NCBI GenBank assembly: GCA_013140715.1
Contig: JABFSG010000037.1
Location: 1-46,013, forward strand
Length of the DNA stretch: 46,013 bases
DNA from: Nitrospiraceae bacterium
Lineage (GTDB): Bacteria > Nitrospirota > Nitrospiria > Nitrospirales > Nitrospiraceae
Direction: 5' to 3'
The stretch's first letter is position 1. Each line of letters opens with the position of its first letter. Positions 14,956 through 41,658 of this stretch are shown here, piece by piece. The position numbers and the translations under genes were made by a program. The notes under the pieces were generated by a model. It was not told the origin of the DNA, did no database searches, and saw only the letters and a program-made list of their open reading frames with translations.

Positions 14956-14969
14956 CCGATGAGTAACCA

Positions 14970-15740: not shown

Positions 15741-15745
15741 TACCC

Positions 15746-16501: not shown

Positions 16502-16517
16502 GGGAGGAGCACCGAAG

Positions 16518-16961: not shown

Positions 16962-16969
16962 CCTAACGA

Positions 16970-17049: not shown

Positions 17050-17079
17050 CGAATAACATTTTGTACAGACGGAGGAGAC

Positions 17080-17730: not shown

Positions 17731-17747
17731 CCCTCTCCAGGAATTTC

Positions 17748-18950: not shown

Positions 18951-18970
18951 TTTGCTGGGGAGCTATTATT

Positions 18971-19981: not shown

Positions 19982-20155
19982 GCGGTAAGGGAGGTTCGGC
20001 TGCGAGAGGGGCTAACACCTTGACAACATAGAACTCACATGTGAAACTCACCCCTGCGGGCTCCAAACTGCCACACCGCAGTGCCGAGGCCATCAGGGCC
20101 TAGCTCGCTGCTATAGATGTATGTGTGTAGGTATTGATGCAAAGGAGCATCTACT

Positions 20156-22105: not shown

Positions 22106-22117
22106 TGAGGACGTGAG

Positions 22118-22193
22118 TTGTTGAACGTGAAGCGTTATTCGCAAGAAAGATGTGTTGCGGTTCACGATTAACCAAATAACGATTAACAAAGCC
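22118..22193. repeat. GTGAA-type words between dxs and ispG
   Basis: AACGTGAAGCGTTA near 22124 and the later TTCACGATTAAC at 22161 form a loose inverted pair. Same word family as other gaps. Confidence 0.45.
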
Positions 22194-23378
22194 ATGCACA
22201 TTACCAGACGGAAAACTCGGCAGATTCAAGTTGGCAAGGTCAAGATCGGCGGAGACGCGCCCGTGTCCGTCCAGTCGATGTGTTCAACGGACACACGCGA
22301 TGCTGCCGCGACGATCGAGCAAATTCGCCAACTAGAAGCTGCAGGGTGCGAAGTGATCCGTGTCGCCGTGCCGGATGACGAAGCGGCTGCTGCGCTGCCC
22401 AAGATCAAGGCGGCGATGACCGTGCCGTTGATCGCAGACATTCATTTCGACCATCGGCTGGCCTTGAAGGCTGCCGAGATTGTGGACTGCGTGAGAATCA
22501 ATCCGGGCAACATCGGAGCCTGGTGGAAAGTCGAAGAAGTCATCAAGGCTGTGAACGATCACGGTATTCCGATTCGCGTCGGTGTCAATGGGGGCTCGCT
22601 GGAACGGGATCTGTTGGACAAGTACGGCTGGCCCTCGCCGGAAGCGCTGGCCGAATCGGCTCTCAATGCTGTCCATGCGCTCGAAGACGTCGGCTTCACC
22701 AATATGAAGGTCTCGCTGAAGGCGTCGGATGTGCACCATGCGATCGATGCCTACTGGTTGTTTGCACACCAGTCGGACTATCCGCTGCATATCGGTATTA
22801 CAGAGGCAGGAACGGCGATGACCGGAGCCGTCAAGTCCACCATGGGCCTCGGGTACTTACTCTCCCAGGGAATCGGCGATACCTTGCGCGTGTCGCTCGC
22901 GGCCGATCCGGTCGAAGAAGTGAAGGTGGGATTCGAAATCTTGAAGTCGCTCGAACTTCGCCATCGCGGGATCAATGTCATTGCCTGTCCTACTTGTGGC
23001 CGTGTCGAGATAGACGTGGTGAAGCTGGCCAATGAACTGGAAAAGAAGCTCGGCCATATCAAGACCCCGCTGAATGTGTCGGTCCTCGGCTGTGTTGTGA
23101 ACGGGATTGGCGAAGGCAAGGAAGCGGATATCGGAATCGCCGGAGGCGAAGGCAAGGGTATCCTGTTCAAGAAGGGAAAGCTCGTCAGAAAAGTGCCGAT
23201 TGAAGAGTTGATGGACACGTTGATTTATGAAGTCGAGTTGATGGCCAAAGAAAAAGATGCCGAAGGGAATGGGGAAGTCGCGGTCCATTCGAACGAGGGA
23301 TGGGAACCGATGGTTCCGCAGTCGGATCAGCCTTCGACGCTCGGAAAAGAAATTCCGGTCCTCTCCAGTAAGCGGTAG
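22194..23378 (+). CDS. ispG: 4-hydroxy-3-methylbut-2-en-1-yl diphosphate synthase
   Basis: Iron-sulfur enzyme of the MEP pathway (MEcPP to HMBPP), about 394 residues. The cluster cysteines appear in IACPTCGRVEID and VLGCVVNGIGEGKEADIG, and the TIM-barrel part begins RQIQVGKVKIGGDAPVSVQSM. The ATG at 22194 fits the family N-terminus better than an upstream in-frame ATG at 22152 that lies inside the GTGAA-type repeat. The C-terminal 40 residues are a variable tail not needed for the fold. It is downstream of dxs, same strand. Confidence 0.95.
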   Translation: MHITRRKTRQIQVGKVKIGGDAPVSVQSMCSTDTRDAAATIEQIRQLEAAGCEVIRVAVPDDEAAAALPKIKAAMTVPLIADIHFDHRLALKAAEIVDCVRINPGNIGAWWKVEEVIKAVNDHGIPIRVGVNGGSLERDLLDKYGWPSPEALAESALNAVHALEDVGFTNMKVSLKASDVHHAIDAYWLFAHQSDYPLHIGITEAGTAMTGAVKSTMGLGYLLSQGIGDTLRVSLAADPVEEVKVGFEILKSLELRHRGINVIACPTCGRVEIDVVKLANELEKKLGHIKTPLNVSVLGCVVNGIGEGKEADIGIAGGEGKGILFKKGKLVRKVPIEELMDTLIYEVELMAKEKDAEGNGEVAVHSNEGWEPMVPQSDQPSTLGKEIPVLSSKR

Positions 23379-26407: not shown

Positions 26408-26947
26408 ATGAAACAAAAGGAATGTTTGTTGCTGGCGGTTGCGTTGGGGATGGGGCTTTCCCTTGCAGCCTGTGGAGGAGAAGGGGGGGGCGGGGAAGGA
26501 CCGATCGTTGCGCCGCCGCCGGCTCCTGCCGAGTGGGCCGACAAACATATGCCGGCTGGCTGGTGGACCGATGCGGCCAAATTGGAAGAAGGGCGGAAGT
26601 TATACGCCGGCGAGACAAATCCTGATGTGAATTGTGGCAGCTGCCACGGCAAGGACGGTAAGCCGACCAAGGCCGGCGCCAGGGACTTCCGTGTTACCGA
26701 TCGGATGAAACTCTATTCTGATTCAGTCTGGGCCTGGCGGATCGCCGAAGGGGTTCCCAATACCAAAATGAAGGCATGGAAGAGCAAGTTATCGGAGGAC
26801 GATACGTGGAAGCTCGTATTGTATGAAGCGAGTTACGGATTGCCTGGGAAGGGATGGGATGCAGCAACGAAGTCTTGGGTTGATGCAGCGAGCGTCGTGG
26901 CAGTTCCCGCTGTTGTTCCGGCTGCGCCGGATTCGACTGGCAAGTAA
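26408..26947 (+). CDS. Monohaem cytochrome c lipoprotein
   Basis: Periplasmic electron carrier of 179 residues, anchored by a lipid at Cys22 (lipobox LAAC, followed by a Gly-rich linker). One class-I-type haem site CGSCH is at residues 76-80, with Met121 in PNTKMKAW the likely distal ligand. The ATG at 26408 is chosen for the ribosome site AGAGGAG and the clean signal peptide. The C-terminus is Ala/Val/Pro rich. It is the first gene of the respiratory cluster; a 420-base gap separates it from the first CydA-like gene. It could donate or accept electrons for that complex, or be a free lipoprotein cytochrome. Confidence 0.9.
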   Translation: MKQKECLLLAVALGMGLSLAACGGEGGGGEGPIVAPPPAPAEWADKHMPAGWWTDAAKLEEGRKLYAGETNPDVNCGSCHGKDGKPTKAGARDFRVTDRMKLYSDSVWAWRIAEGVPNTKMKAWKSKLSEDDTWKLVLYEASYGLPGKGWDAATKSWVDAASVVAVPAVVPAAPDSTGK

Positions 26948-27368
26948 GGGTGTTTCAGCTTTGGAGGCTGCTGACCGATATTAATTCAGAAGCTTTGTAC
27001 GTTGAGCCTCTGGGTGGCCTATCGGTCTGTTCGGGGCGCGAGATCTCCTGGCGGTATGAGATACCTGAACGAACCTTTCGCTGCTATGACTATGACTAGA
27101 TCTTCTCGCTGCCCCCGTTTTAGTGCTTGTCGCTGAGTCATCGCGCGGTTCACGGTGAAATGACGCTATTCTGTACGACGCACAAGCTCTCTTACGCCCA
27201 AGGTCTCCGACTGCAAGATAGAGTTGCAGCGAGGAGCTTTTACCGGGGATCCGGGCATGAGAACCATCGTTGGCCGTCTATCGGCGAGCCTGCCGCAGAA
27301 GAGGGGAAGCAGCAGGCAATAGCCTCGATATGGGACGGGCTCTTAGCGGAGAGAGGCGACGAAGTATT
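26948..27368. other. Leader region before the first CydA-like gene
   Basis: No gene is supported in these 421 bases. Only a small hairpin (CTGCAA at 27211 with TTGCAG at 27224) stands out. A promoter for the main respiratory operon is expected here but I cannot point to a convincing one. Confidence 0.4.
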
Positions 27369-29072
27369 ATGAAATTGTGGCAGCGCAGTCTCATCCTCGC
27401 CTGTGCGATGTTGGCGTTGTTCGGCGGCGTGGCCTATGCGCAAGCTCCTGGCGTGTCGCCGGTAGAGTTTCGTTATACGGGAAATCGGACCGCCGTATGG
27501 ATCGTTGCCCAGTTGCACACGCTCTTTGGGGCGTTCGTGCTTGGCGCCCCAATCTTTGTCGTCATCTCAGAATGGTTGGGGCATTGGAAGCAGGACCCCC
27601 GGTACGATCGCTTGGCCAGAGAGGTGACGAAAGTCACGGTTATACTCTTCAGCATGACGGCTGTGACCGGTGGTCTGTTTATCTTTGTGCTCCTCGCGAC
27701 ATACCCGCAGTTCACGACATGGTTCATCAATCAGTTCTATCTCGTGTTCGCGGTCTTCTATCCGGCGCTGTTCATCAGCGGGACCATCGTATTGTACGCC
27801 TATTTCTATACCTGGGATGGCTGGAAGGGTGAGAAGAAAGGGCGCCATATCGTCCTCGGTGTACTCCTGAATCTCATCTGCATGGTCACGATGTTTCTGA
27901 TCAATGGTCCGACATCCTTCATGAACACTCCGCTGAAGGCTGAGGGTATGTCTCCCCAGGATCTTCTCGCCGCCGCGAGCTTGTGGGATAAGATCGCCAA
28001 CCAAAGCTGGATGCCGCTGAATCTTCATCGCATCGACGGCAACGTGGCGTTTGGAGGATTTATAACGGGTTTGATCGCCGCCTATATGTACATGGGGGCA
28101 AAAACGCAGGAAGATCGGGCCTATTATGATTGGATGGGTTTTGTCGGAAGTCTAATCGCCGTGGGCGCGACGCTCTTCCAGCCCTTTACGGGATTGTTGC
28201 TGGCCTATGAGATGTGCGATTACGACTTTTCGTTCTGCCCCTACATGATGGCCGATCAGCTCTCGATGTTCTTCGAAATGCAAGGAGCGATGATCGGACT
28301 GTTATTTTTGGCCATTAACTATTACGGATGGCTCAGCTTAAAACGTGTTGAGGGGGCCGAAAAGGTCCGGATGACGGTTCTGGCTCCCATCGTCATGGTG
28401 GCCTTACCCTTCGTCATGATGGCGGTGATGAACACCTATTGGATTCCCGATCCGAAATCGCTGGCCTTTCTCCTGCCGTTGGTTCTGGCACCGTTTCTTA
28501 TCGGTCGATTCATCCCGCTCACCGTCTCTGCGCGGACTGTCATTAAAATCGGTTTTTTAATGATCATCGTGAGCGATGCGATCTGGCTCACCCCTCACGG
28601 ATTTGCGGCCACTGGCGCCAATATGGTGGCAGGGGTGGAGATCCCGTCCGATTGGGAATTCCTGGGGTCGATGCCGGCGAAACTTTCCGCGATGTTCACA
28701 TTGGTGTTCGTCACGGTCGTCAACTATATTTTGTATAACCGGGTCATCAAGCAAGGTACGATCCTCTGGGGGAAGATCGATTTCGCCTCTCAGTTCGTCT
28801 TGATTGTTCTGGCTTTTATTTCAATCTGGACGATGGGCTTGATGGGCGCCGTCCGTTCGCTGGTAAAGAAGTATTACCACACGTACAGTTTGATGCCCGA
28901 CCTCTCTTCGGAGTCCTTCACGCCGACTCTGTCGTATTCTGCCTGGTGGATTACCGGAATTACCGTCATCTTTTTCGCCGTGGTAAGTTTGGCCGTGATC
29001 GTGGCCCTTCGGCCTTCCAGTTCGAAGAGTCACGCACCCGAAGGCAGCCCCGTGCCTGTCAGGGCCAAGTAA
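27369..29072 (+). CDS. CydA-like multihaem membrane protein, paralogue 1
   Basis: A 567-residue integral membrane protein with about 12-14 hydrophobic segments, distantly related to subunit I (CydA) of cytochrome bd oxidases. The N-terminus is a signal-like helix ending AYAQAP. By eye, His50 (VAQLHTLFGAFVLGAP) matches the CydA helix-I haem ligand His19, His220 (LNLHRIDGNVAFGGF) matches His186, and a Met near 308 (QGAMIGLLF) may match Met393. CydA Glu99 and Glu107 and the quinol-loop GRQPW motif are not found, so it is probably not a canonical bd oxidase. No CydB follows. The start at 27369 has GAGAGG upstream. The next genes are cytochrome c, Rieske and cytochrome b, so an electron-transfer role in that complex is likely. 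Confidence 0.82.
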   Translation: MKLWQRSLILACAMLALFGGVAYAQAPGVSPVEFRYTGNRTAVWIVAQLHTLFGAFVLGAPIFVVISEWLGHWKQDPRYDRLAREVTKVTVILFSMTAVTGGLFIFVLLATYPQFTTWFINQFYLVFAVFYPALFISGTIVLYAYFYTWDGWKGEKKGRHIVLGVLLNLICMVTMFLINGPTSFMNTPLKAEGMSPQDLLAAASLWDKIANQSWMPLNLHRIDGNVAFGGFITGLIAAYMYMGAKTQEDRAYYDWMGFVGSLIAVGATLFQPFTGLLLAYEMCDYDFSFCPYMMADQLSMFFEMQGAMIGLLFLAINYYGWLSLKRVEGAEKVRMTVLAPIVMVALPFVMMAVMNTYWIPDPKSLAFLLPLVLAPFLIGRFIPLTVSARTVIKIGFLMIIVSDAIWLTPHGFAATGANMVAGVEIPSDWEFLGSMPAKLSAMFTLVFVTVVNYILYNRVIKQGTILWGKIDFASQFVLIVLAFISIWTMGLMGAVRSLVKKYYHTYSLMPDLSSESFTPTLSYSAWWITGITVIFFAVVSLAVIVALRPSSSKSHAPEGSPVPVRAK

Positions 29073-29111
29073 GCTGGATGCGGAAGGTCCGCTGAAAGAG
29101 CGAGAATCGGT

Positions 29112-29927
29112 ATGGGGAATATCATCAAGAAGCTGGCGATCGGTCTGGTGATCGGCGGTATACTTGTCGGCGTTGCGAAAGCGCTGGAGTTCCCCTTTGT
29201 GTTTCAGATGCTGTTCCTCGGCTTTGCGATGCTGGGGGCCGGCGTGTTCATACTGCTGGATGCGCCGCCTCTCAGGACGATGAGCGGGGCGAAGTCCGTC
29301 GTCGCTCTCGTGGCTGTCTATATTCTCTTATGCACAGTCTGTATCGCCGGCGCGACTTTTCTCCCACAATTCGACCCTGAAGAAGAAAAGGGGAAGATCG
29401 CAAAAATATTAAAGCCCCAGTTCGAGGCCTCAGAAAAGGGAAAGACTGAGGAGTTGATCGCGCGCGCCAAGGCGCTTGATGAGCAGGTGAAGGCGTTAGA
29501 AGTGAAGCTCATGACTCTGGGAGCAGAGCAGATGGCGAAGGGGCTGTCGACCGGCACTCCTATTCCCACTCCTCCTCCCACCCCGACGACCAACATGGTG
29601 GCCGGAGATTTTATGAAGCTGGGAGAAGAGCAATGGCAGCTGATGGAATGCTACAACTGCCACAAATTGAGGGGTGAGGGGGGAAAGAAGCGCGGTCCGG
29701 AGTTGGATAATATCGGCTCGTTTTTGACGGTCGAAGAGATTCAGCAGAAAATTACAGATCCCAAGAGCTTCATGGCCGAGGGATTCGAAAAAGAGTGGGA
29801 AAAGGGCAGGATGCCCGACAAGTTTAAGGAGCTCATGGAGCCGAAGGACATCCTGGCGCTCGCCTCCTGGCTGGGTTCATTCAAAAATACCTCGGTGAAT
29901 ACACCAAGGCCGATTAAGAAAAAATAG
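29112..29927 (+). CDS. Membrane-anchored monohaem cytochrome c
   Basis: A 271-residue protein with three hydrophobic segments (about 7-24, 28-48 and 64-85), a helical Lys/Glu-rich linker (about 90-145), a Pro/Thr hinge and a C-terminal cytochrome c domain with haem site CYNCH at 180-184 and a likely distal Met in GRMPDKF. It lies between the first CydA-like gene and the Rieske gene, which follows after one base. The hinge suggests a mobile haem head, as in the cytochrome c subunits of bc-type complexes. It may take the place of cytochrome c1 here. Confidence 0.9.
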   Translation: MGNIIKKLAIGLVIGGILVGVAKALEFPFVFQMLFLGFAMLGAGVFILLDAPPLRTMSGAKSVVALVAVYILLCTVCIAGATFLPQFDPEEEKGKIAKILKPQFEASEKGKTEELIARAKALDEQVKALEVKLMTLGAEQMAKGLSTGTPIPTPPPTPTTNMVAGDFMKLGEEQWQLMECYNCHKLRGEGGKKRGPELDNIGSFLTVEEIQQKITDPKSFMAEGFEKEWEKGRMPDKFKELMEPKDILALASWLGSFKNTSVNTPRPIKKK

Positions 29928-29928
29928 G

Positions 29929-30861
29929 ATGCAGCCTCAACTGAAATCGAAAGTCCGCTGTGCGGACCGGGAAGTCGGCGAAGTGACCAAGGTCATCATG
30001 GACCCGCTCTCCCATGATGTCAGCCATCTCGTCGTGTCGATGAACGGGTCAGGCGAACGGCAAGTGTCGATCGGCGCAGTGCAAACTGTGACGGAAGATC
30101 TGGTGCAGCTGCGTTCATCCTCGTCCGAAGTCATCGCGTTGCCGCCCTTCAAGCGCGAGGACTACGTCACGTTGCATGAAGTGGAAATTCCGGGCCTTGA
30201 GCGACATATTCACGTCGAATCGGGTGAAGTTCTGGTTCCGCTCCCTGAACTGGAACGAAACGTGAAGCGAAGGACCTTCTTTGCGAACTTGACCTATGTA
30301 ACGGGGCTCTTTATCGGGCTGCCGCTGGTCTATCCGGTACTGAAGTTTTTGATGAATCCGATGTATGCGTCGCTGGACAACAGATGGCTGAAGGTCGGCA
30401 ACGTCGCGAAGGTGAAGGCGGAGGATGTCGGGACTCAGTTTCAGTACAAGCGCAGGGTGAAAGAAGCCTATATGCCTGAATCTGAAATTGAGAAGAACGT
30501 CTGGGTGGTGAAGGCGACGCCCTCGGTGTTGGAAAAAGTCTACCAAGGGAAGGATATGGAATTCCGGGATTCCGCCGGGAAACCTATCTGGACCAATAAG
30601 AAAGACGTCCCTTTTCTGGCATTTTCCGGCAAATGCCCCCACCTTGGTTGCGGATTTAAATGGCGAAATCACAAGGTGCTCGGACCGGTCTTTCTCTGTC
30701 CCTGCCACTTGAGTATCTACGATGCATCCGGCAAGGTGCTGGATGGTCCTGCCCCACGCTCCCTCGACCTGATGCCGATTCAGGTGTCTTCGAGCGGTGA
30801 AGTGCAAATCATCGATATGGAATTTAAAGCCGGGACCAAGTCCCAAACGCGGATTGTGTGA
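29929..30861 (+). CDS. Rieske iron-sulfur protein with N-terminal PRC-barrel-like domain
   Basis: Rieske subunit of a quinol:cytochrome c type complex, 310 residues. The [2Fe-2S] ligands are in CPHLGC (Cys236, His238) and CPCHLS (Cys257, His260), with Cys241 and Cys259 as the usual disulfide. One TM helix is at about 118-138. Unusually, residues 1-80 before the TM helix form an extra domain that looks like a PRC-barrel (VRCADREVGEVTKVIMDP and later HLVVSMNG). It should face the cytoplasm. The stop overlaps the cytochrome b start, so the two are translationally coupled. The Rieske part is certain; the PRC assignment is by eye. Confidence 0.92.
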   Translation: MQPQLKSKVRCADREVGEVTKVIMDPLSHDVSHLVVSMNGSGERQVSIGAVQTVTEDLVQLRSSSSEVIALPPFKREDYVTLHEVEIPGLERHIHVESGEVLVPLPELERNVKRRTFFANLTYVTGLFIGLPLVYPVLKFLMNPMYASLDNRWLKVGNVAKVKAEDVGTQFQYKRRVKEAYMPESEIEKNVWVVKATPSVLEKVYQGKDMEFRDSAGKPIWTNKKDVPFLAFSGKCPHLGCGFKWRNHKVLGPVFLCPCHLSIYDASGKVLDGPAPRSLDLMPIQVSSSGEVQIIDMEFKAGTKSQTRIV

Positions 30862-31976
30862 TGAGCGACATTCCTCCTTCTGTCGGCCCGCCGGCCACCG
30901 TCGCCGAAAAAATCTTCGCCTTTGTCGATGAGCGGGTGGGGCTGAAGCAGCTGACAGCCAAGATGCTCAATGAGTCGGTCCCTGGCGGCTCGCGATGGGC
31001 CTATGTCTTCGGATCGATTCTGTTGTTCATCTTCATCATGCAGGCCCTGACGGGCGTGTTGCTGATGTTCTACTACGTGCCCACCGCCGACCATGCCTAT
31101 GCCAGTACCCAATACATCATCCATGACATCGACTACGGCTGGTTCCTCCTGAGCTACCATTTCTGGGGCTCTTCGGCCATGGTTGTTTGTGTATTTGCCC
31201 ATATGTCCCAAGTCTTTCTCTGGGGCGCCTATAAGAAACCGCGTGAGCTCATCTGGTTGGTCGGACTGGCGCTTTTTGCCCTCGTCATGGGATTCGGCTT
31301 CACAGGCTATTTACTCCCCTGGGACCAGCGTGCCTTTTGGGCCACGACCGTCGGCGTTGAGATTATGGATAAGGTGCCGGTAATCGGGGATTTCCTGGCG
31401 CGTTTCCTCAAAGGAGGTCCGACGCCGGGACAGATGACCTTGAGCCGGTTTTTTGTCATTCATGTGATGGTCCTGCCGGCAGCTCTAATCGGGTTGGCAG
31501 GGCTGCATCTCTTTCTTTTTCGATGCGCGGGGCCGGCTGGTCCGTTTCGAGGTACGCCGGTGGAGTTGAAGGCGAAGACCGATTATTTTTTTCCGCGGCA
31601 GATTTGGAAGGATGTCGTCGGGATGGCGGTGGTCTTTGCTTGTATCAGTGCGTTGGCCTTCTGGGAACCGGTGGTCTTATTGGACGAGGCGACCCCTGAC
31701 CCAGGCGATTACCATCCGGAACCGGAATGGTACTTCTTATTTATATTCCAGCACCTGCGCCTGAGGATGTTTTCAGGCGAGCTTGGACAGATATTCGGAT
31801 CGATCGTAGGCCCGGGCCTTCTCGGGCTTGTGCTGGTGTTCTTGCCCTTCTTCGACCGCAACCCCGAGCGAAATATATTCAAGCGGCCGATTGCTCTTAT
31901 CGGATGGGTGGTGCTCACGGCTTCGATCCTGTTGTTCACGGTGTCGGCCATTATCAATCGAGAGTTTTTGGACTAG
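30861..31976 (+). CDS. petB: Cytochrome b of a bc/b6f-type complex
   Basis: Membrane dihaem b subunit, 371 residues. Haem ligands are His100 and His114 in the first pair (13 residues apart) and His201 and His216 in the second (14 apart), a spacing known from b6-type cytochromes rather than mitochondrial cytochrome b (13 and 13). The quinol-site motif PEWY is intact in PEPEWYFLF. The polypeptide covers both the b6-like and the subunit-IV-like part in one chain. The ATG lies on the stop of the Rieske gene (a GTG one codon earlier is also in frame). The next gene starts about 280 bases later, after a repeat. Confidence 0.95.
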   Translation: MSDIPPSVGPPATVAEKIFAFVDERVGLKQLTAKMLNESVPGGSRWAYVFGSILLFIFIMQALTGVLLMFYYVPTADHAYASTQYIIHDIDYGWFLLSYHFWGSSAMVVCVFAHMSQVFLWGAYKKPRELIWLVGLALFALVMGFGFTGYLLPWDQRAFWATTVGVEIMDKVPVIGDFLARFLKGGPTPGQMTLSRFFVIHVMVLPAALIGLAGLHLFLFRCAGPAGPFRGTPVELKAKTDYFFPRQIWKDVVGMAVVFACISALAFWEPVVLLDEATPDPGDYHPEPEWYFLFIFQHLRLRMFSGELGQIFGSIVGPGLLGLVLVFLPFFDRNPERNIFKRPIALIGWVVLTASILLFTVSAIINREFLD

Positions 31977-31992
31977 CGGGATGCTGAGGAGC

Positions 31993-32016
31993 CGTGAAAC
32001 GTGAAGCGTGAAGCGT
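31993..32016. repeat. GTGAAACGTGAAGCGTGAAGCGT word repeat
   Basis: Tandem GTGAARCGT words directly after cytochrome b, of the same family as those at 2826, 5801 and 22120. Confidence 0.55.
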
Positions 32017-32028
32017 ATCTTGATATTT

Positions 32029-32137
32029 GCGCGAGACTCGCGAGACATGCGAGAAAAGCGGAACTGGTCGGGAGTTTTATCTTCGCGAGTCGCGCCTGTC
32101 GCGCACGTCTAGCTTGTCTCGCTCGCAGTTCACGAGC
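32029..32137. repeat. Long GCGAGAC palindromic repeat, copy B (inverted relative to A)
   Basis: Reverse complement of this stretch aligns with 24897-24998 through almost its entire length, apart from a middle segment of about 20 bases that differs. It splits the respiratory gene run between cytochrome b and the unknown membrane protein. Confidence 0.8.
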
Positions 32138-32260
32138 GGCGGACAGCGAGAACGGCCTGTTTGAGCATCTTGCTGGTGCATTTCTGTTCCCAACGCTGCG
32201 CAAAAGATGCAGAATGCCTAAACCTTCCGCATTCTCAATTGTCTATCGCTCGGTACCGGT

Positions 32261-33265
32261 ATGAACGAGACAATGTCTCCTACAAAGCTCGGGCTCGGGA
32301 TTCTCTGGCCCGCCTTCTGGACCGGTTTGCCGATCAAGCTTGCCCTAGCGGTACTCTTTCTATCGTTTGGGATCGTGCACTTTGAAACCAGGATCGCCCT
32401 TGCATTTTTGATGCTCCTGGCAAGCCCTGTGACCGTGTTTGCGCTGCCAACGATTACTCTAGGATTGGACTCACAGATTGGTGAAGGCGCCGGCATCGCG
32501 TTATTGTTTCTGCTGGCGATTCCGATCGATATTTGGGCGCTCAGGCTTGTGGGGCGAACATTTTTCCTTGAACATTGTCGGCGCGAGCCGCCGGCCAAGC
32601 TGGGGCTGACCCTCTGGTGGAAGTGTGCATTGGTCGGCGCCATCTTTTTACCGATCCTTTGGGTGGCTCAGGGTGCGATTACCGATGCTTCGATTTCTGC
32701 CGCCCATTCGTTGTTTGAAGGTGGTCTTCTGGAAGGAACTCCTATTGCAGAGAGAATCAGTATCGAGCTGACCCTCTGGGGCACTGTGGCTACAGGAGCG
32801 CTTCTGGGGTTTCTCATTCTCGGCCTCTCGCTTGTGGGGCGGATGATTCGAGGCACGGTACAGTTGGCGCCGCATGCTTCGGACAATTATGAAAGGTTGA
32901 TCACTCGTTGGGATCTGATGCGGGTACCGGCAGATCAAGGGTTGCTGCTTACCGTATGTTCCTGCGTCGCGATAGTGTTGTCCCTCCTTTTCTGGTCTTC
33001 TCTTCCGCAGTTTACGCCGCATCCGCACGAATGTTGCAAGAAGGTCGAAGTGAAGGCCGAACCGGAATTCAAACCGCTCGAAACACTGAAAAAAAATGAA
33101 AATACGATCGCACAGCTTGCAGCACGGGTTGAATTTTTGATAGAACAGCAGGCGGTCGCCGAGCTGGATAAGGAAAAGAGCAAGAAAAAAGGCGAGACAG
33201 GCAACGAAGCAGTGAATGAACCGGAGGCAACAGTGCCGGTTTTGCCTGGCGCCGTGAAACCATAA
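32261..33265 (+). CDS. Unknown membrane protein with C-terminal His/Cys cluster
   Basis: A 334-residue protein with about six TM segments (roughly 13-40, 45-68, 76-96, 118-138, 166-192 and 226-246). Right after the last helix comes HPHECC (His254, His256, Cys258, Cys259), which could bind a metal or form disulfides, then a predicted coiled coil (about 270-310) and a charged Lys/Glu tail. I do not recognise the family. It is followed by the second CydA-like gene after a very short gap, so it belongs to the respiratory operon and may be a complex-specific subunit or assembly factor. A short ATG alternative (32273) is possible. Neither start has a clear ribosome site. Confidence 0.72.
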
Positions 33266-33290
33266 CGTGGGAGATGATGAGGTGAGGGCA

Positions 33291-35153
33291 ATGCAACATC
33301 AGGGTGGATGGATTCAGCGGCTTCTCCAGATCGGCAGAGATCATGGAGGAACGCTTTCAATGCTCGTGATGGCAGCGGGCCTTCTCAGTCTTCCAGCGCT
33401 GGCCTTTGGAGCAGATGCCACACCGCCTGCTCCTGTCGAGTATCGTGACGTGCCATACGTCGGCAGCCGGAATGTGATCTGGGTTATTGCGCAACTCCAT
33501 TTGCTGCTCGCGGGGTTTGTGCTGGGAGTGCCGCTCTTCGCCTGGATATGCGAAGTCGTCGGCTGGAAGGGTGGCGAAAAGCGTTACGATAAACTCGCCA
33601 AGGAGTTTACGAAGCTTCTGACCTCCGCCTATTCCACGACCGCGCTCTTCGGCGCCATCCTGCTGTTTCTGCTGATCGGGTTTTATCCCAAGCTGATGAA
33701 TTATCTGAGCGATATTTTCTTTCCGTCGTTTATCGTCTATTGCATCCTGTTCTTGCTCGAGACTGCAACATTGTATCTCTATTGGTATGGCTGGGACACG
33801 ATGCAAGACGGCGGCAAGAAGACCTTTCATATTTTCCTCGGCTTCTTGCTCAACTTCTTTGCCTTCTTCATCATGATCATCCCCAACTCCTGGGCGACGT
33901 TCCAATCCAGTCCGGTGGTGCTTGCCGAGGGTTCGGATATTGCCCGAGCCTGGGCCGCAACGTGGAACCCCACCTGGTGGCCGGTGAACATTCACCGCAT
34001 CATTGCGAATGTGGTGCTCGGCGGCTACATCTGCGGTGCCTATGCCGGGATTCGCTATCTATCTTCCAAGACGCCGGAAGAGCGCAGCCACTACGACTGG
34101 ATGGGGTACGTTGGGAATTTCATCGGGGTCTTCGGTCTGTTGTCGCTTCCCTTTGCCGGCTACTGGCTCATGCGTGAAATCTACCAGTACAACCAGCAGA
34201 TGGGCATCACGCTCATGGGGGGATTTCTGTCGTGGTTGTTCATTCTGCAGGCCATGCTTATCGGCGTGCTCTTTCTCGGATCGAACTATTATTTCTGGAT
34301 AGGGATGACCTATCGCATTCCCGGGTCCGATCTGAAATATAAGAAGCAGATGTTGGCGATGTTGGTCGCGCTGCTGGTGTGCCTGGGTATCTGGATGACG
34401 CCCCACTCACTCGTAGCCAGCATGGAAGAAGCGAGAAAAATGGGGGGAAGCCACCATCCGCTTCTCGGTGTTTTCGGCGTCATGTCGGCCAAGATGACGG
34501 TCGCGAATCTCATGATCCTCGTTACTTTCATGAGCTTCATTATGTATTGGAGGGCCGGCAAGCAGGAAACAGCGGGCTGGGCTACGGCGGCGAAAGTATT
34601 TATGGGGCTCGTACTTGCCGTTTCTGCGATTGCGGTCATTGTCCTCGGCGTGTGGGGCTATTTCGTCCCGGCGATCATCCGCATCAACTACTTCTCTACG
34701 TCGCAGGTGTTGGTCGTGCTCGGTGTCATGCTGACGATCACTCCACTGACGAGCATTCTCTTGAAGAGCGCTAAGACCACGAGCGAAATGGTCTGGGGCG
34801 TAATGCCTCCCCGTGCCGGCTATTCTCTCGTACTCAATGCGATCATGATCATCCTCTTGATGACGCTGATGGGTTATGCACGGTCGTCGTCGCGCGTCCA
34901 TTGGCACGTTTATGGTGTGCTCCGTGATACGTCGCAATATGCCTATTCGCCTGCGCTTGGCTACGCATCTGGAATCATGGCCCTGTGCACGTTCCTATTC
35001 TGTATGATTGTGGCCTTCATCTTCTGGGTCGCCACCATGGGCGATAAGGCCAAAACACCTGCCGTAGCCAGTAAGGCGGGATTGCCGCACGGGCTCCCGG
35101 CGATGGCAGGCGGGTCGAATGCGCTGGATGAACCGAAGACAAGCAAATTCTGA
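33291..35153 (+). CDS. CydA-like multihaem membrane protein, paralogue 2
   Basis: A 620-residue membrane protein, paralogous to the one at 27369. Shared landmarks are His70 (IAQLHLLLAGFVLG), His235 (VNIHRIIANVVLGGY) and the motif MTPH later on. Unlike paralogue 1 it keeps a Glu (Glu157 in CILFLLETATLY) at the position that aligns with CydA Glu107. GRQPW is absent. The N-terminus has a signal-like helix ending ALAFGAD. The ATG at 33291 with GAGGTGAGG before it is preferred over a GTG 24 bases earlier. It is downstream of the unknown membrane protein and followed by two membrane-anchored cytochromes c. Function as an oxidase is unproven. Confidence 0.83.
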   Translation: MQHQGGWIQRLLQIGRDHGGTLSMLVMAAGLLSLPALAFGADATPPAPVEYRDVPYVGSRNVIWVIAQLHLLLAGFVLGVPLFAWICEVVGWKGGEKRYDKLAKEFTKLLTSAYSTTALFGAILLFLLIGFYPKLMNYLSDIFFPSFIVYCILFLLETATLYLYWYGWDTMQDGGKKTFHIFLGFLLNFFAFFIMIIPNSWATFQSSPVVLAEGSDIARAWAATWNPTWWPVNIHRIIANVVLGGYICGAYAGIRYLSSKTPEERSHYDWMGYVGNFIGVFGLLSLPFAGYWLMREIYQYNQQMGITLMGGFLSWLFILQAMLIGVLFLGSNYYFWIGMTYRIPGSDLKYKKQMLAMLVALLVCLGIWMTPHSLVASMEEARKMGGSHHPLLGVFGVMSAKMTVANLMILVTFMSFIMYWRAGKQETAGWATAAKVFMGLVLAVSAIAVIVLGVWGYFVPAIIRINYFSTSQVLVVLGVMLTITPLTSILLKSAKTTSEMVWGVMPPRAGYSLVLNAIMIILLMTLMGYARSSSRVHWHVYGVLRDTSQYAYSPALGYASGIMALCTFLFCMIVAFIFWVATMGDKAKTPAVASKAGLPHGLPAMAGGSNALDEPKTSKF

Positions 35154-35217
35154 ATGATGAATTTGGAGTGTAGCGCGGCACTCAGGGCCAAGCGTTCCTA
35201 ACTGCCCGAGGGGATAT

Positions 35218-35844
35218 ATGAGCGAAATTGTCAGACTACAGTTGATTGGTCTTAGCGTGGTTGGGGTGGGCATTCTGGCTCTCCTCTTCATTCGCGGCAC
35301 GTTCATCCGAGTCGTCGGATTTGTCGCGATTATACTGGGCCTCTTCACGCTCGTTTCATTGTCGATTCCGCAAATGGCGTCCTTGCCACCGATTGAAGAA
35401 AAGTTCGACATTGCCACGGTCAAAACACCGACCGACATGGCGACCATCGGGCAGAAGATATTTTTCAGTAAAGGCCAGTGTGCGCTCTGCCATACGATTG
35501 GCCCCAGTGAATCGGCCCGCTGCCCAGACCTGAAGGGGATCGGAGCCAAGTTAAGCCGTGAGTTTCTGTATGAAAGCTTGACGAATCCCCAGGCCTATAT
35601 CTACCAAGACTATCGTGTGGAGGGCATGGCGAAGGAATATCCGGCCACGATGCCCTACATCAATAAGAATCCCATCGGGCTATCCAGGAATGAGATTCTC
35701 GCGGTGATCGCATTCTTGCAGCAGATGAGCGGTGAGCCGATTTCTATCGCTGTATCTGAGCTAGGAACGCCGGAGCCGGCCCCTGTCGTTCCGGCGCAGA
35801 AAGCAGCCGAGTCCAGTCCAGTAGCCGTGGCGCAAGCGCATTGA
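35218..35844 (+). CDS. Membrane-anchored monohaem cytochrome c
   Basis: A 208-residue protein with two hydrophobic segments (about 7-25 and 31-51), then a cytochrome c domain with haem site CALCH at 88-92 and a distal Met probably in PATMPYIN. A Pro/Ala-rich tail follows. The start at 35218 has a GAGGGG ribosome site. It comes 64 bases after the second CydA-like gene and 10 bases before the next cytochrome c, so it is co-transcribed with both. Confidence 0.9.
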   Translation: MSEIVRLQLIGLSVVGVGILALLFIRGTFIRVVGFVAIILGLFTLVSLSIPQMASLPPIEEKFDIATVKTPTDMATIGQKIFFSKGQCALCHTIGPSESARCPDLKGIGAKLSREFLYESLTNPQAYIYQDYRVEGMAKEYPATMPYINKNPIGLSRNEILAVIAFLQQMSGEPISIAVSELGTPEPAPVVPAQKAAESSPVAVAQAH

Positions 35845-35854
35845 GGAGGAATGT

Positions 35855-36574
35855 ATGAAGGGTGCATTGGTCACGCCGGTCATTGTGATGGTGGTTGTCT
35901 ATTTGCTGTTAAAGTTTGTCGTGCCCAATATCCCTGGCTCTGCGCCGCTGCCCTTCAGCGTCATTATTCTCTATATGATGCTGACCCTCTCAGGGATTGG
36001 AATGTTTTACACACTGAGCAAAGATTCCAAAGACGCCTTCTGGGGCCCGATGGAACGGTTTTTGACAGGAGAAAACATCGGTGGAATGCAGGCGTTGCGC
36101 TGGGGCCTCCTGATTTTGTTCCCACTACTTGTCGGTTGGCAAACCTATAGCAGTACGGCGGTCAGCGATCAGCCTCCAGGGGAAAACCGGACGATTCATC
36201 CAGCCCCGCCAGGTGAATATGCAGGCTTGTCGAATCCAGTGGCAAAGACACCGGACGCGATCCAACAGGGGAAGGGTTTTTATGCCGCCTATTGCTCTCC
36301 CTGCCACGGTGGAAACTTCGATGGTAAGGGCCCTGCTGCAAGAGGGTTCAATCCTCCCCCGGCAAACTTCGCCGATCCAACGACAATCGCTATGCTCCAG
36401 GAGAGCTATCTTTTCTGGCGCATCAAGAAGGGTGGCGTCGGACTCCCCATCGAAGGGATGCCCTGGAAATCCGCGATGCCACGCTGGGAAGTCGAACTTC
36501 CGGACGAATGGATTTGGAAGATCATCATGGGCGAGTACGATGGAGCGCATCAATCACCGAGGACGTGGGAGTAG
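35855..36574 (+). CDS. Membrane-anchored monohaem cytochrome c
   Basis: A 239-residue protein with three hydrophobic segments (about 6-24, 34-53 and 80-97), followed by a cytochrome c domain with haem site CSPCH at 147-151 and likely distal Met in IEGMPWK or SAMPRWE. TGAGGAGGAA provides a strong ribosome site; an out-of-frame ATG four bases earlier is ignored. The N-terminal helices resemble those of the cytochrome c at 29112 in arrangement. It is part of the same operon. Confidence 0.9.
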   Translation: MKGALVTPVIVMVVVYLLLKFVVPNIPGSAPLPFSVIILYMMLTLSGIGMFYTLSKDSKDAFWGPMERFLTGENIGGMQALRWGLLILFPLLVGWQTYSSTAVSDQPPGENRTIHPAPPGEYAGLSNPVAKTPDAIQQGKGFYAAYCSPCHGGNFDGKGPAARGFNPPPANFADPTTIAMLQESYLFWRIKKGGVGLPIEGMPWKSAMPRWEVELPDEWIWKIIMGEYDGAHQSPRTWE

Positions 36575-36715
36575 GAGAGCGGGAAAACCGTTTTCGTCGC
36601 CTACAGCTCATGTCTGTTTGCAAAGTATGCGCGACCCAGCGGCGCTCGTTCGGTATGCATCGTAGAAGGCGCTAGCTCAAGCCGTAGAGCAGTGAGGAGA
36701 GAGAGGACAGAACTT

Positions 36716-37582
36716 ATGAAACGTGGATTGAATCAAATCCTTCCGAGCGCCATCGCGAGTGTCGGGCTGATTCTAGGATGTTTGATTGTGCAGCCGGTTT
36801 TCGCCGAAGAAAAAACTCCGGCGAGTGCACCGCCGGAATCAGCATCGGAGAGCAATGCGGTTAGCGCTTCGTTGGTGAAGGGTAGCCTGCCGACCGACGA
36901 TCCGACAGCGGCTGTGTGGAACACCGCGGCCCAGGCGAGATTTCCAATGTCGCCTCAAGTCCATTGGCCGAACCGAATTTTGGATGCCACAGTCAAAGAT
37001 TTGAACGTGCGTGCCTTGCACGACGGTACGAATGTCTCCATTCTGCTGGAGTATGCAGATCCGACGGAAGATGCAGACGATGCAGCCGCGGTTGAGTTCA
37101 TGGTCGGCGACAAAAAAGCTCACTTTGCGCATGGCCAACCGATGGCGCAGGTAGAAGGCGGTCCGGTCAATATCTGGTTCTGGAGGAATAAGGACGCCAA
37201 AGGCGTCGATATGAATGCCATGGGTTTTGGCACACTAAAAATACAGGAGCACCAGGACGTCCAGGCGAAAGGCGTGTATAGCAACGGTACCTGGAAAGTC
37301 GTCTTTACGAGGCCGCTCCTCACCGGACATCTGGAAGAAGATACGCAGATTGAAATGGGCGGCTTTATCAATATCGCCTTCGCCGTCTGGGACGGCAAGA
37401 AGGACGTCAGCGGAGGGATCAAGGAGAAGGGATCTCAAAAGGCCGTTTCATCCTGGTGGAATTTCCGTGCGGAGGCACCTCCAAATTATACCGGCTATTA
37501 CTATGCAGCCATCGCGGTCGGCCTGGCTTTTGGATTTCAGTTTTTCCTGATCCGTAATCTCAAGAAAGGGCATCGAGCATGA
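36716..37582 (+). CDS. Ethylbenzene-dehydrogenase-gamma-like haem b protein (NxrC-type fold)
   Basis: A 288-residue exported protein with a signal peptide (cleavage near PVFAEE) and a domain resembling the haem-b-binding gamma subunit of ethylbenzene dehydrogenase, the family to which NxrC of nitrite oxidoreductase also belongs. Landmarks are RFPMSPQVHWPNRILDATVK, a beta-rich core (RALHDGTNVSILLEYADP) and GGFINIAFAVWDG. Unlike soluble gamma subunits it ends in a TM helix (about 262-281) with a basic tail, so it is anchored. The ATG at 36716 has a purine-rich ribosome site. The next gene overlaps by four bases. No molybdopterin catalytic subunit is in the window, so it appears to serve the respiratory complex here. 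Confidence 0.82.
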   Translation: MKRGLNQILPSAIASVGLILGCLIVQPVFAEEKTPASAPPESASESNAVSASLVKGSLPTDDPTAAVWNTAAQARFPMSPQVHWPNRILDATVKDLNVRALHDGTNVSILLEYADPTEDADDAAAVEFMVGDKKAHFAHGQPMAQVEGGPVNIWFWRNKDAKGVDMNAMGFGTLKIQEHQDVQAKGVYSNGTWKVVFTRPLLTGHLEEDTQIEMGGFINIAFAVWDGKKDVSGGIKEKGSQKAVSSWWNFRAEAPPNYTGYYYAAIAVGLAFGFQFFLIRNLKKGHRA

Positions 37583-38604
37583 AGGCGGCCCCCTTATACG
37601 TAACGGGAGTGGTGGGTGCACTGATTGGCATCGGGGCCTTGGTTGCCGGGGGCTGTGCCAATGAGCAGCAGGCGAAGGGGCATGAACTGTATGGCCACTA
37701 CTGTTCGCACTGTCACGGTGATTCTGGGCGCCAAAACGAGGGATACAATTGGTCTTCGATGCCGGATCCGAAGCCCAAAGATCTCACGAACAAGTCAGAA
37801 ATGAGCACACTCAAAGACAAAGACATCTTCGATACGATTTACCGCGACATGAAGGACACGGGGGAAGGGGGCGACGAAATCGGTGACGACGAATTCGGCG
37901 TGCCCACCATGCCGTCGTTCAAGTACACCCTGTCGGAAGACGAGATATGGGCCATCGTCGGCTATGTCCGTGGCCTCCACGGCACGAAGTTAGAGTTCAA
38001 TGTCGAAGAGCGGAAGAAACAGTTGGCTGCAGCACTCGTCACAGCCCAAGGCAATTTGGAGCAGGCCACGAAGACCTATGAGGAGGCTGAAAAGAAAGCC
38101 AACGAAGAGGCCGAAAAGAAAAATGTGGATGTCGATGATGCAGCCTATGCCAATGAATTGGCTGCCATGGCGAAAGCGAAAAAAGAACTCGATGCAGCGC
38201 AAGCTGGGCTGAATAATTTTACGGCAAGACCTGGAAAAGGGGTGAGTATAGCCAGGCCAGATCTCACCGTGAAGCCGGCGGATGTTCCGAAGTTGGTAGA
38301 GCTCGGCAAGCGATACTATGAGGACAAGTATGGCTGCAACGGCTGCCATGCTATCGGCGGTGAGGGGGGTAAGGTCGGGCCAGCGCTTGATCGCGCAGGA
38401 TTCAGATTGAACCCAACCTGGGTCTATCGGTGGCTGAAGAATCCACAGGCAATGAATGCGGAAACTAGGATGCCGGCGCTCGGGCTGAGCGATGCCGATG
38501 CCAAGGCTGTGACGATGTATCTGACGACGTTACGCGCGGCTGGGAACCCTGAGGGTTCGTCCAACAAGCCGGAAGAGGCTCCGCCGGCCAAGCCGGAGAG
38601 TTGA
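37579..38604 (+). CDS. Dihaem cytochrome c lipoprotein with coiled-coil linker
   Basis: A 341-residue lipoprotein (lipobox AGGC, Cys26) with two cytochrome c domains. The first haem site is CSHCH at 42-46 with Met in PTMPSFK; the second is CNGCH at 253-257 with Met in TRMPALG. Between them, residues about 140-212 are a Lys/Glu/Ala-rich coiled coil, an uncommon linker that may hold the haems apart or make contacts in the complex. The start overlaps the preceding gene by four bases (ATGA), so the two are translationally coupled. It is the last gene of the cluster. Its stop is two bases from the convergent ubiA stop. Confidence 0.92.
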   Translation: MKAAPLYVTGVVGALIGIGALVAGGCANEQQAKGHELYGHYCSHCHGDSGRQNEGYNWSSMPDPKPKDLTNKSEMSTLKDKDIFDTIYRDMKDTGEGGDEIGDDEFGVPTMPSFKYTLSEDEIWAIVGYVRGLHGTKLEFNVEERKKQLAAALVTAQGNLEQATKTYEEAEKKANEEAEKKNVDVDDAAYANELAAMAKAKKELDAAQAGLNNFTARPGKGVSIARPDLTVKPADVPKLVELGKRYYEDKYGCNGCHAIGGEGGKVGPALDRAGFRLNPTWVYRWLKNPQAMNAETRMPALGLSDADAKAVTMYLTTLRAAGNPEGSSNKPEEAPPAKPES

Positions 38605-38606
38605 AC

Positions 38607-39506
38607 TCAGAGCAGAAATCCCGCGACTATTCCGATAAAGACAGCGACTCCTACCCACACATGTTGCTGAAACATGTGAAAGGCGGTGGGAGTCGTGACG
38701 GTTTGCCTCAGCTGCAAGGCTTGTCTCACGCACCATAGGCCGATCGCAGCGAGCGCTCCATAATAGATCCAGCCGATGTCGGCGAACCAGCCAGCCAATC
38801 CCAGCAGCAGCAGCATGGCGCAGAATACTGTGCCGACAGCGATCCACGTCGAGGAACCGAACAGCAACGCCGAAGATTTCACGCCGATTCGGCGGTCGTC
38901 ATCCCGATCCTGTAACGCATAGATCGTATCGTAACCAATTGCCCAACAGACCGTCGCAGCGAACAGACACCAGGCCGGGGCTTCAATCGTTCCACGCGAC
39001 GCGGTCCAAGCCATAATCGTGCCCCAGCCGAAGGCGATTCCCAAAATGGCTTGGGGGATATGGATAATGCGTTTGGCGAAAGGATAGGCGCCGGCCAAGA
39101 GGATAGCGATGGGACTCAGAAGGATTGTGAAGGGATCGAGGAACAGTACGAGTATTCCGGCCAGTACGAGAAAAAAAGCGAAGACGAGCCAGGCATGTGT
39201 GGGGCTGAGTTCGCCCGATGCGAGTGGCCGGACCCTTGTGCGGGTCACATGGCGGTCGAAAGATCGATCCGCTAAATCGTTTAGGACGACTCCTGCACTG
39301 CGCATCACAAAGGACCCGATGGCGAAGATGGCGAACAAGTGCAACGGAGGCATGCCGCGAGTGGCCAAGACCAAGGACCAGAGTGTCGGGAGCATGAGTA
39401 GCCAGGTCCCAGTCTGGCTCTGGAGACGAATGAGTCGGCAGATGGCCGACCAGGAAAGTTGAGGCGACAAAGGCGGCCCTGACTCCGCCGAAGAAGATTC
39501 GGTCAT
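38607..39506 (-). CDS. ubiA: UbiA family prenyltransferase
   Basis: Integral membrane aromatic prenyltransferase of about 299 residues. The two Asp-rich motifs are present: NDLADRSFDRH with RTRVRPLASGELS, and DRDDDRRIGVKSS, both needed for Mg-diphosphate binding. About eight or nine TM segments follow the UbiA pattern. It resembles 4-hydroxybenzoate polyprenyltransferase, but organisms that use the futalosine menaquinone route have a similar enzyme (MqnP), which is the main alternative. The ATG at 39506 is used; a TTG nine bases upstream is possible. It is convergent with the cytochrome operon with no room for a terminator between them. Confidence 0.9.
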   Translation of the reverse strand: MTESSSAESGPPLSPQLSWSAICRLIRLQSQTGTWLLMLPTLWSLVLATRGMPPLHLFAIFAIGSFVMRSAGVVLNDLADRSFDRHVTRTRVRPLASGELSPTHAWLVFAFFLVLAGILVLFLDPFTILLSPIAILLAGAYPFAKRIIHIPQAILGIAFGWGTIMAWTASRGTIEAPAWCLFAATVCWAIGYDTIYALQDRDDDRRIGVKSSALLFGSSTWIAVGTVFCAMLLLLGLAGWFADIGWIYYGALAAIGLWCVRQALQLRQTVTTPTAFHMFQQHVWVGVAVFIGIVAGFLL

Positions 39507-39599
39507 GGGGATCAACTTAGCCGAGGGCTGTTTGGGCTGTCAACGAGGCAAAAAGCGTGGCGCGTGAAGCGCGAGTTGGCTGGTTTTTCTTGTTTATTT

Positions 39600-39714
39600 G
39601 GTTTGTTTGGTTGAATGAGATTAGCCACATAAGAAAGATCGCTGGGTGGTGTGTTTAAGTGTCTTTCGTTTCTTTAATTCAGGTCGAAGAAACGTACTCG
39701 GAACCAAACAAACC
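39600..39714. repeat. TTTGTTTGG inverted repeat
   Basis: GGTTTGTTTGGTT at 39600-39612 is perfectly inverted at 39702-39714 (AACCAAACAAACC), with about 90 bases between. It resembles the AT-rich repeat at 16970 in word content and lies in the gap between the divergent ubiA and caspase-fold genes. Confidence 0.7.
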
Positions 39715-39753
39715 TGGCCGAGTTGTGCTCATTGGGTGCTTTTCTGTATAAGA

Positions 39754-41658
39754 ATGATTGTGCAGGTCATTGATTCAGCGCGTCATTCCATCTTGCTTCG
39801 TGCAGCCGCAGGGGTTGTCACGGGGCTCTGTATTGTAACCTTGATGAGCTGTGGGCTCTTCTCGAATCGCGGCAGCGCGAATCTCGGATCCAATCTTCCC
39901 CTCACCGTCCAACTTCGACCTGATTCCGGTATCGTCGGGGCGCAGCTTACCTATCGGGATGCGTGCGGTCAGAAGCAATTCTTGCCGATCGGCTCTCCCT
40001 TGCAGGACATGCTGAAGCGAAAGACAGGCCGTGTGTTTGAAAGGGTCTTGACGGATGAAACCGGATCCCTGTCGGCTCCCGATGGGTATGTCGATACATC
40101 GTTGGGTCCGGCCTATGTCGATCTTCTCATCCCTCGAAAGGTCGACAAAAGCTACCCTGCCACAGTCACTCTGGGATTGGACTTTGCATACAGGGCCACC
40201 GATGGAAGGGTTCTCTACAGTAAGAAGATTCAAAGCATCGGTCGTGGAGAAGTCAATGTTACTGCTGCCTCCTGTGAGGTGAAGGGGCTCGATGCGATTG
40301 CTCAGGAGGCCATGGATTATGTGACGGATGGTATGGCCAATCAACTCGGGACATCCAACAATATTATCGATGCCGCTCAAGCACGCAAGGCTGCCGGTCC
40401 CCAGGCAGCCGCATATACGAGACCGGCAGTTGCAGCGCAATCGGCTGTAGCCGTACCTGTGCCGGCTTCAGTGGATGGGTCTGCCACGGTGATATTTCGG
40501 GCGATTGTCAGGACCGAAAATCACAATCAGGTGCTCCATGCCGGTGAAGCAGTTGTGATCGAAATTGAAATCAAGAATGAAGGGCCTGGAATAGCACGGG
40601 CGGTTGAATTGTCGGTGGCTGCTACGCCGCCCTTGATCGAGGGGATTCCGAGCATAGTATCCGTCGGGGATCTGCAGCCCGGCGAGGTGAAGCGCCTCAC
40701 GTTGGACGGCAAGGCTGGAAGAGTCAAAGATGCAATAGAGGCGGAGCTGACGTTGACAGTGGGAGCCGGGTCTCCATCGGTTCAATTGCCATCCCCCAAG
40801 AAGTTTGTAGTGGCGACGAAGCCTGAATCCGATATGAAGGCTGTGGCACTGCCGATGGATGTGGATCATTTGCCGAAACAGACCGGCCTGCTCAAACAAC
40901 CCAAGGCCGTCGGCATTGTCGTCGGGGTGGGCCGATTTCGGGAAAGCGGTATTGCCAAGGTTAAGTATGCGGTACGGGATGCGGAAGTGATGGCTGCGTA
41001 CCTCAAATCGATTGGAGGGATTCCTCCCGAGCGTGTACGTACACTTCTCGATACCCATGCTCTCAAGGATGACCTGACGGAAGTCTTGGAAGAGTGGTTG
41101 CCCAAGCAGGTAGACCCTGCCACCGTGGTCTATATCTCAATCGTAGGAAGAGGAGTGGTTGAGTCCACCACCGGCGCAGTGTCGGTGATGTTATTCGACA
41201 GTACTGCCGCGTCCGGTGCGCGGCTCTATTCGCTCCGTCGGCTGCAGGACTCCTTGGCATCATTGCCGATCCGGCAAGCAGTGGTGATGCTCGACCTCTC
41301 ACTCGAACTGGCACCGGGCAGGGAGGTAGTAGATGGAGTGGTTCCCTTATGGGGACAGGGGGGAAGCGGGAAAGAAAAGATTATGTGGATGGTCGGCAAC
41401 CAGGTAGTCAAGGAGAGCAATAGTTATGACCCAGGCCGGCATGGACTCTTTACCTATCAATTACTCAAAGGCCTTAGTGGTGCGGCCGATCTCGATAGAA
41501 ACGGTACCATTCTGGCCGGCGAACTCTGCGCCTATACCAAGGGGCAGGTATTCAAGGTAGCCCAGGAGCAGTATGGTAGTGGGCAGGAACCCCTCTGTTT
41601 TCCGAGACCTGGCCAAGGGGCTTCGGTCCGGTTGCAGCCAGTTGCCCGGTTCAAATAG
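39754..41658 (+). CDS. Lipoprotein with caspase fold lacking the catalytic dyad
   Basis: A 634-residue lipoprotein (lipobox LMSC near residue 32). Parts in order: an N-terminal beta region (about 45-190), a Pro/Ala linker, an Ig/CARDB-like domain (about 250-360, with VIEIEIKNEGPGIARAVELSV) and a C-terminal caspase (C14) fold starting KAVGIVVGVG near 384 and continuing through YAVRDAEVMAAYL. Where caspases have the His of a GHG motif it has Arg466 (IVGRG), and where they have Cys after LDA it has Ser516 (MLDLSLEL). It is therefore probably a pseudopeptidase with a binding role on the envelope. The caspase match is by pattern. An upstream in-frame start (39646) is less likely. Confidence 0.72.
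   Translation: MIVQVIDSARHSILLRAAAGVVTGLCIVTLMSCGLFSNRGSANLGSNLPLTVQLRPDSGIVGAQLTYRDACGQKQFLPIGSPLQDMLKRKTGRVFERVLTDETGSLSAPDGYVDTSLGPAYVDLLIPRKVDKSYPATVTLGLDFAYRATDGRVLYSKKIQSIGRGEVNVTAASCEVKGLDAIAQEAMDYVTDGMANQLGTSNNIIDAAQARKAAGPQAAAYTRPAVAAQSAVAVPVPASVDGSATVIFRAIVRTENHNQVLHAGEAVVIEIEIKNEGPGIARAVELSVAATPPLIEGIPSIVSVGDLQPGEVKRLTLDGKAGRVKDAIEAELTLTVGAGSPSVQLPSPKKFVVATKPESDMKAVALPMDVDHLPKQTGLLKQPKAVGIVVGVGRFRESGIAKVKYAVRDAEVMAAYLKSIGGIPPERVRTLLDTHALKDDLTEVLEEWLPKQVDPATVVYISIVGRGVVESTTGAVSVMLFDSTAASGARLYSLRRLQDSLASLPIRQAVVMLDLSLELAPGREVVDGVVPLWGQGGSGKEKIMWMVGNQVVKESNSYDPGRHGLFTYQLLKGLSGAADLDRNGTILAGELCAYTKGQVFKVAQEQYGSGQEPLCFPRPGQGASVRLQPVARFK

Follow-up and report, generated by a model that had tools for sequence, protein, structure and literature searches.

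A conserved Nitrospira gene cluster that probably combines a bc complex with a putative cytochrome c-fed oxygen reductase

Eleven adjacent genes of a Nitrospiraceae genome combine a Rieske/cytochrome b core with CydA-like proteins and a series of cytochromes c, which raises the question of what respiratory function such a combination serves and whether the system has been described before. The genes lie in a stretch of 46,013 nucleotides (the window), which corresponds to contig C49 in a genome of 3.58 Mb and 99.74% completeness. Since ammonia monooxygenase subunit A (amoA) is encoded in the same genome, its source is most likely a comammox Nitrospira, i.e. a complete ammonia oxidiser, and the nearest named relative in the collection is Nitrospira sp. 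CG24E (98% identity in CydA-like 2). All eleven same-strand genes listed in a preliminary description, with the families given there and with some of them overlapping or only bases apart, were found at 26408-38604 on the + strand (Table 1). Five of the products are c-type cytochromes with six CxxCH haem motifs in total, while the others are two CydA-like proteins, a Rieske protein, a cytochrome b, a family-less membrane protein and an NxrC/EbdC-like haem-b protein. We consider it probable that they represent a conserved Nitrospira complex III plus complex IV locus, composed of a bc complex and an oxygen reductase of the OR-N type fed by cytochrome c, with an entry point linked to nitrite oxidoreductase (NXR).

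Table 1. Genes of the cluster, with positions in the window
Product	Position	Strand	Features
c1, mono-haem cytochrome c, predicted lipoprotein (LAAC signal)	26408..26947	+	PF13442/PF00034, 1 CxxCH
CydA-like 1 (bd-like_1 / OR-N1 type), ~13 TM	27369..29072	+	PF01654 residues 39-284; H49, H219 invariant
c2, mono-haem cytochrome c	29112..29927	+	PF00034; CxxCH and Met invariant; directly before Rieske
Rieske [2Fe-2S] protein	29929..30861	+	PF00355
Cytochrome b	30861..31976	+	PF00033/PF00032
Membrane protein, family-less, ~6 TM and charged coil-like tail	32261..33265	+	
CydA-like 2 (bd-like_2, putative complex IV, Nide0901/OR-N2 type)	33267..35153	+	PF01654 residues 68-310
c3, membrane-anchored mono-haem cytochrome c	35218..35844	+	PF00034; 1 CxxCH
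c4, mono-haem cytochrome c, three N-terminal TM segments	35855..36574	+	PF13442; CxxCH, M180, M208 invariant
EbdC/NxrC-gamma-like haem-b protein (alt_nxrC_1 orthologue)	36716..37582	+	PF09459 over cut-off
c5, dihaem cytochrome c with coil-like linker	37579..38604	+	PF13442 and PF00034; 2 CxxCH

Some of the genes are tightly packed. The distance is at most 1 nt between c2 and the Rieske gene and between the family-less membrane protein and CydA-like 2, and overlaps are found for Rieske/cytochrome b and NxrC-like/c5. The cluster also contains wider intervals (421, 284 and up to 141 nt); several transcripts are therefore possible, and the genes may belong to more than one transcription unit. Scans for promoters and terminators gave no usable signal. 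The 284-nt gap between cytochrome b and the family-less membrane protein (31977-32260) contains several inverted repeats with arms of up to 28 nt. CydA-like 2 starts with GTG at 33267 and has an alternative ATG at 33291, while an alternative GTG start is located at 36692 for the NxrC-like gene. Isoprenoid and hopanoid genes flank the cluster on both sides (window 6945-23378 and 38607-39515), encoding LytB, squalene-hopene cyclase, DXS, GcpE and a convergent UbiA, and a Mla-type transport set is also found among the surrounding genes. Further downstream (39646-41658) lies a gene for a 670-residue protein with no Pfam match, whose C-terminal half appears caspase-like by eye; it is located downstream of the cluster in most Nitrospira loci as well.

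Gene order was compared among 80 loci fetched with CydA-like 2, 52 of which were long enough to hold the whole cluster. All 11 genes occur in the same order and on the same strand in each of these 52 Nitrospira loci (span 10.6-12.3 kb), for instance in N. defluvii (L030) and N. moscoviensis (L045), and the arrangement is hence conserved far beyond chance. The complete order was also seen in L155-L157, three genomes representing two other families of Nitrospirales. In L158-L160, three genomes from two more families of the class, it is likewise kept, with a much shorter family-less protein; one of these class-level loci, L160, keeps the order with a fusion and insertions. The order looked broken in L034, but this was due to c2 cross-hitting c5 at the end of a contig. 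Behind the cluster, 65 loci showed a UbiA prenyltransferase gene in convergent orientation. We regard the cluster as genuine, functionally coherent and ancient in this class. The claim of the preliminary description that there is one conserved functional unit built around a quinol-linked bc core is thus supported by the complete order in the Nitrospira loci, and the outcome named there as contradicting it, an order confined to one genome, did not occur.

The same eleven genes, in identical order and strand, are known as the CIII_1/bd-like_1/bd-like_2 (CIV)/alt_nxrC_1 cluster of N. moscoviensis and as the Nide0901 region of N. defluvii, the latter from Luecker et al. (2010) as cited by later papers. 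Mundinger et al. (2019) described complex III_1, bd-like_1, bd-like_2 (putative complex IV), alt_nxrC_1 (NITMOv2_0740) and several cytochromes c in N. moscoviensis, reported that all cluster genes are strongly transcribed, and put forward a supercomplex of complexes III and IV with possible contact to NXR (PMC6606698). Both CydA-like proteins have been assigned to the OR-N1/OR-N2 CydAA' terminal oxidase subunits (PMC12342949). The cluster is therefore already described and does not represent a new system, as had been supposed. We found no structural difference from the N. moscoviensis cluster, but the comammox genome has no canonical CydAB, whereas N. moscoviensis possesses two (PMC6606698). 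From the N. defluvii match and the published descriptions, we infer that CydA-like 2 is the orthologue of NIDE0901. Experimental confirmation is lacking, as remarked in PMC10839748.

The bc core retains the expected ligands. In the Rieske protein, with a single TM segment predicted behind the first ~120 residues, the CxH..C and CxCH cluster ligands (C236-x-H238..C241 and C257-x-C259-H260) are invariant among 67 orthologues. Cytochrome b, the sole PF00033 match in the genome, consists of a b6-like N-terminal half fused with a subunit-IV-like C-terminal half, and its nearest solved chains are cytochrome b6 and bacterial cytochrome b. Its four haem histidines (H101, H115, H202 and H217) are invariant in the orthologue alignment, and the Qo motif PEPEWY (PEWY type) is present with W291 and Y292 invariant. 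The Rieske and cytochrome b ligands thus resemble those of the cytochrome b6f/bc1 complexes. However, the cluster adds several cytochromes c and the family-less membrane protein, and the b6f-specific haem ci cysteine is absent from cytochrome b, where Val occupies the aligned position. A candidate for the cytochrome c subunit of the core is c2, in which TM helices at the N-terminus are combined with a charged, coil-like stretch.

The family-less membrane protein gave no match in Pfam and NCBIfam searches, and its AF2 model (pLDDT 71.7) retrieved nothing from the PDB at E<=0.001. It was detected in 163 of the 186 class genomes searched, and among the genomes listed from the same taxonomic order as the window, only 4 gave no match to it. 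Cross-hits of c3 to the profile of this protein stem from one fused ORF within the profile: in L028 (7122-10352), a single ORF of 1077 residues covers the family-less protein, CydA-like 2 and c3, and it may be genuine or may result from misassembly.

For both CydA-like proteins the PF01654 match stops after the N-terminal half. Profile alignment against canonical CydA worked only within the N-terminal half of CydA-like 2 and failed for CydA-like 1, and the C-terminal halves could not be aligned reliably, so that the ligands of a third haem or of copper lie outside any claim made here. Within the alignable half, H78, H243 and E165 of CydA-like 2 are aligned with H19, H186 and E107 of CydA (E. 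coli numbering). The equivalents of both haem-ligand histidines (H19 and H186) are also kept in CydA-like 1. The RQPW (GRQPW) motif of quinol oxidases, which belongs to the C-terminal half of CydA, was seen in none of the 127 sequences of the two orthogroups, which include 63 CydA-like 1 orthologues. CydA-like 2 is conserved at >=97% in 379 positions over 64 sequences, while its predicted structure (pLDDT 48.5) was too poor to use. Both orthogroups are separated from canonical CydA in a tree that was built without the published OR-N reference sequences (Murali et al. 2021). The canonical CydAB quinol oxidase shares with these proteins the N-terminal helices carrying the H19 and H186 equivalents, but the cluster's proteins have no CydB, no RQPW motif and extra helices. 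Like the OR-N type CydAA' (PMC12342949, PMC10839748), the cluster pairs two CydA-like proteins that have neither a CydB partner nor the RQPW motif, and cytochromes c are encoded next to them; the OR-N assignment is made here by gene content and residues, outside the published reference tree, and reduction of O2 is putative.

The rule that CydA depends on CydB is not valid within the OR-N group, and the genome has four CydA-like genes, two in the cluster and two on contig C36, with no match to CydB (PF02322) anywhere. No COX1 (PF00115) was found in the cluster proteins, nor any over the family cut-off in the genome. A 452-residue COX1-like membrane protein on contig C85 (L122, 1066-2421) scored 34.3 bits against a cut-off of 34.8 and had no NCBIfam match and no PDB sequence match; on these grounds it was given less weight as a candidate for the real terminal oxidase. 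One of the two CydA-like genes on C36 (L123, 6923-18629) heads a module in which it is joined by genes for a dihaem c, for a monohaem c and for an NxrC-like protein with two haem motifs. This module is homologous (paralogous) to the second half of the cluster and corresponds to bd-like_3/alt_NxrC_2 of N. moscoviensis (PMC6606698).

With four CydA-like genes and the sub-threshold COX1-like protein in the same genome, CydA-like 1 and 2 might have lost their O2 chemistry and persist only as electron wires or anchors, O2 being reduced instead by bd-like_3/4 of C36 or by the COX1-like protein of C85. The presence of bd-like_3 in anaerobic anammox bacteria (PMC6606698) has been counted in favour of such a loss, but it also makes bd-like_3 itself less plausible as an oxidase. 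The COX1-like protein, moreover, has the missing matches noted above, and the extreme conservation of CydA-like 2 together with its kept haem-ligand equivalents argues against a loss of function, so we regard this explanation as very improbable.

Another explanation, proposed in the preliminary description, is a single complex mainly for reverse electron transfer, in which nitrite electrons would pass through the bc core and the CydA-like proteins into the quinone pool. The bc core is quinone-linked, reverse electron transfer through complex III has been proposed for Nitrospira (PMC12324825), and a quinone-reducing role has been suggested for bd-like_3 (PMC3578206; PMC6606698). Such a role would, however, leave the genome without any other recognised terminal oxidase, and CydA-like 2 is the protein put forward in the literature as complex IV; the missing RQPW motif in both CydA-like proteins also speaks against it. 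We judge it improbable as the main role, since the cluster holds a putative terminal oxidase, and this presence points to reduction of O2 with cytochrome c electrons as the main expected role. Reverse feeding of the quinone pool is retained as a possible mode of the bc core.

The NxrC-like protein has a signal peptide and a C-terminal TM, and matches PF09459 with 78.2 bits (cut-off 33.3), while its TIGR03477 match (111 bits, E 4.6e-32) falls under the cut-off of 169.85. A hint to the partner of CydA-like 2 comes from five class-level genomes outside Nitrospirales, where a single ORF of about 775-831 residues joins homologues of CydA-like 2 and c3 (L160-L165, two of these loci being from one genome). 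In the tree, these fusion proteins branch as the sister group of the unfused Nitrospirales orthologues, so that the fusion counts as indirect evidence; on its basis c3 is proposed as the likely direct electron donor to CydA-like 2. In most fusion loci, two MrpD/NuoM-like proteins (PF00361) adjoin the fusion gene, as seen in L162-L165, and a different, split-type Rieske/cytochrome b pair is found near it in L162 and L163. L160 (3836-18308) is a hybrid locus, which has the whole gene order of the window with an ATP-synthase-c-like gene (9641-9970), and it also carries the fusion and two MrpD/NuoM-like proteins (12435-15902). Clusters TO_1 to TO_4 of Ca. Manganitrophus are similar in combining bd-like proteins with cytochromes; TO_2 has two MrpD-like subunits, as in L162-L165, and TO_3/TO_4 contain parts of complex III or ACIII-like complexes (PMC9040806). 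In contrast to them, the cluster in the window has no MrpD-like genes.

The association of the CydA-like 2/c module with a different bc complex in L162 and L163 is consistent with two or more separate complexes that are merely encoded together, one being a bc complex (c1 to cytochrome b) and another an oxidase/NXR-docking module (CydA-like 2, c3, c4, NxrC-like and c5). The paralogy of the second half to the bd-like_3/c/c/alt_NxrC_2 module on C36 and the 284-nt gap after cytochrome b fit this division, whereas the full 11-gene order kept at the order level and, in two families, at the class level, and the strong transcription of all genes in N. moscoviensis (PMC6606698), argue for a common unit. 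We consider separate complexes a real, though somewhat doubtful, possibility. At the other extreme, all 11 products could form one obligate III-IV-NXR-docking supercomplex, in which nitrite-derived electrons would enter at the NxrC-like protein and be shared out, some going to O2 by way of c3 and CydA-like 2 and others to the quinone pool by way of a reversed bc core, with the OR-N pair, without CydB, as a cytochrome c-fed bd-type oxidase of a biochemically uncharacterised kind; this seems unlikely to us.

For the complex III plus complex IV locus that we prefer, the Rieske/cytochrome b core and its attached cytochromes c would mediate electron exchange of the quinone pool with cytochrome c, running forward with ammonia-derived or other low-potential electrons or in reverse with nitrite-derived ones. 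High-potential electrons from nitrite oxidoreductase may enter through the NxrC-like haem-b protein and c4/c5, and would then be passed to the membrane-anchored c3 and on to CydA-like 2 as the site of O2 reduction, the CydA-like pair without CydB (OR-N1/OR-N2 type) being the putative oxygen reductase. This electron path, the reduction of O2 and the assembly into a single supercomplex are inferred. The data favour a main function in O2 reduction with cytochrome c as the electron source, because the 99.7%-complete genome has no CydB and no haem-copper oxidase above cut-off, only one cytochrome b match was found, and a c3 homologue is fused to CydA-like 2 in class-level relatives.

Nitrospira are globally important nitrifiers, most of which have no recognised haem-copper oxidase, and this locus is the published candidate for their O2 respiration. 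The comparative evidence presented here, namely the order-wide conservation, the cytochrome c fusion in relatives and the lack of any other recognised oxidase, strengthens the assignment as an oxidase and singles out c3 and CydA-like 2 as the pair of most immediate interest.
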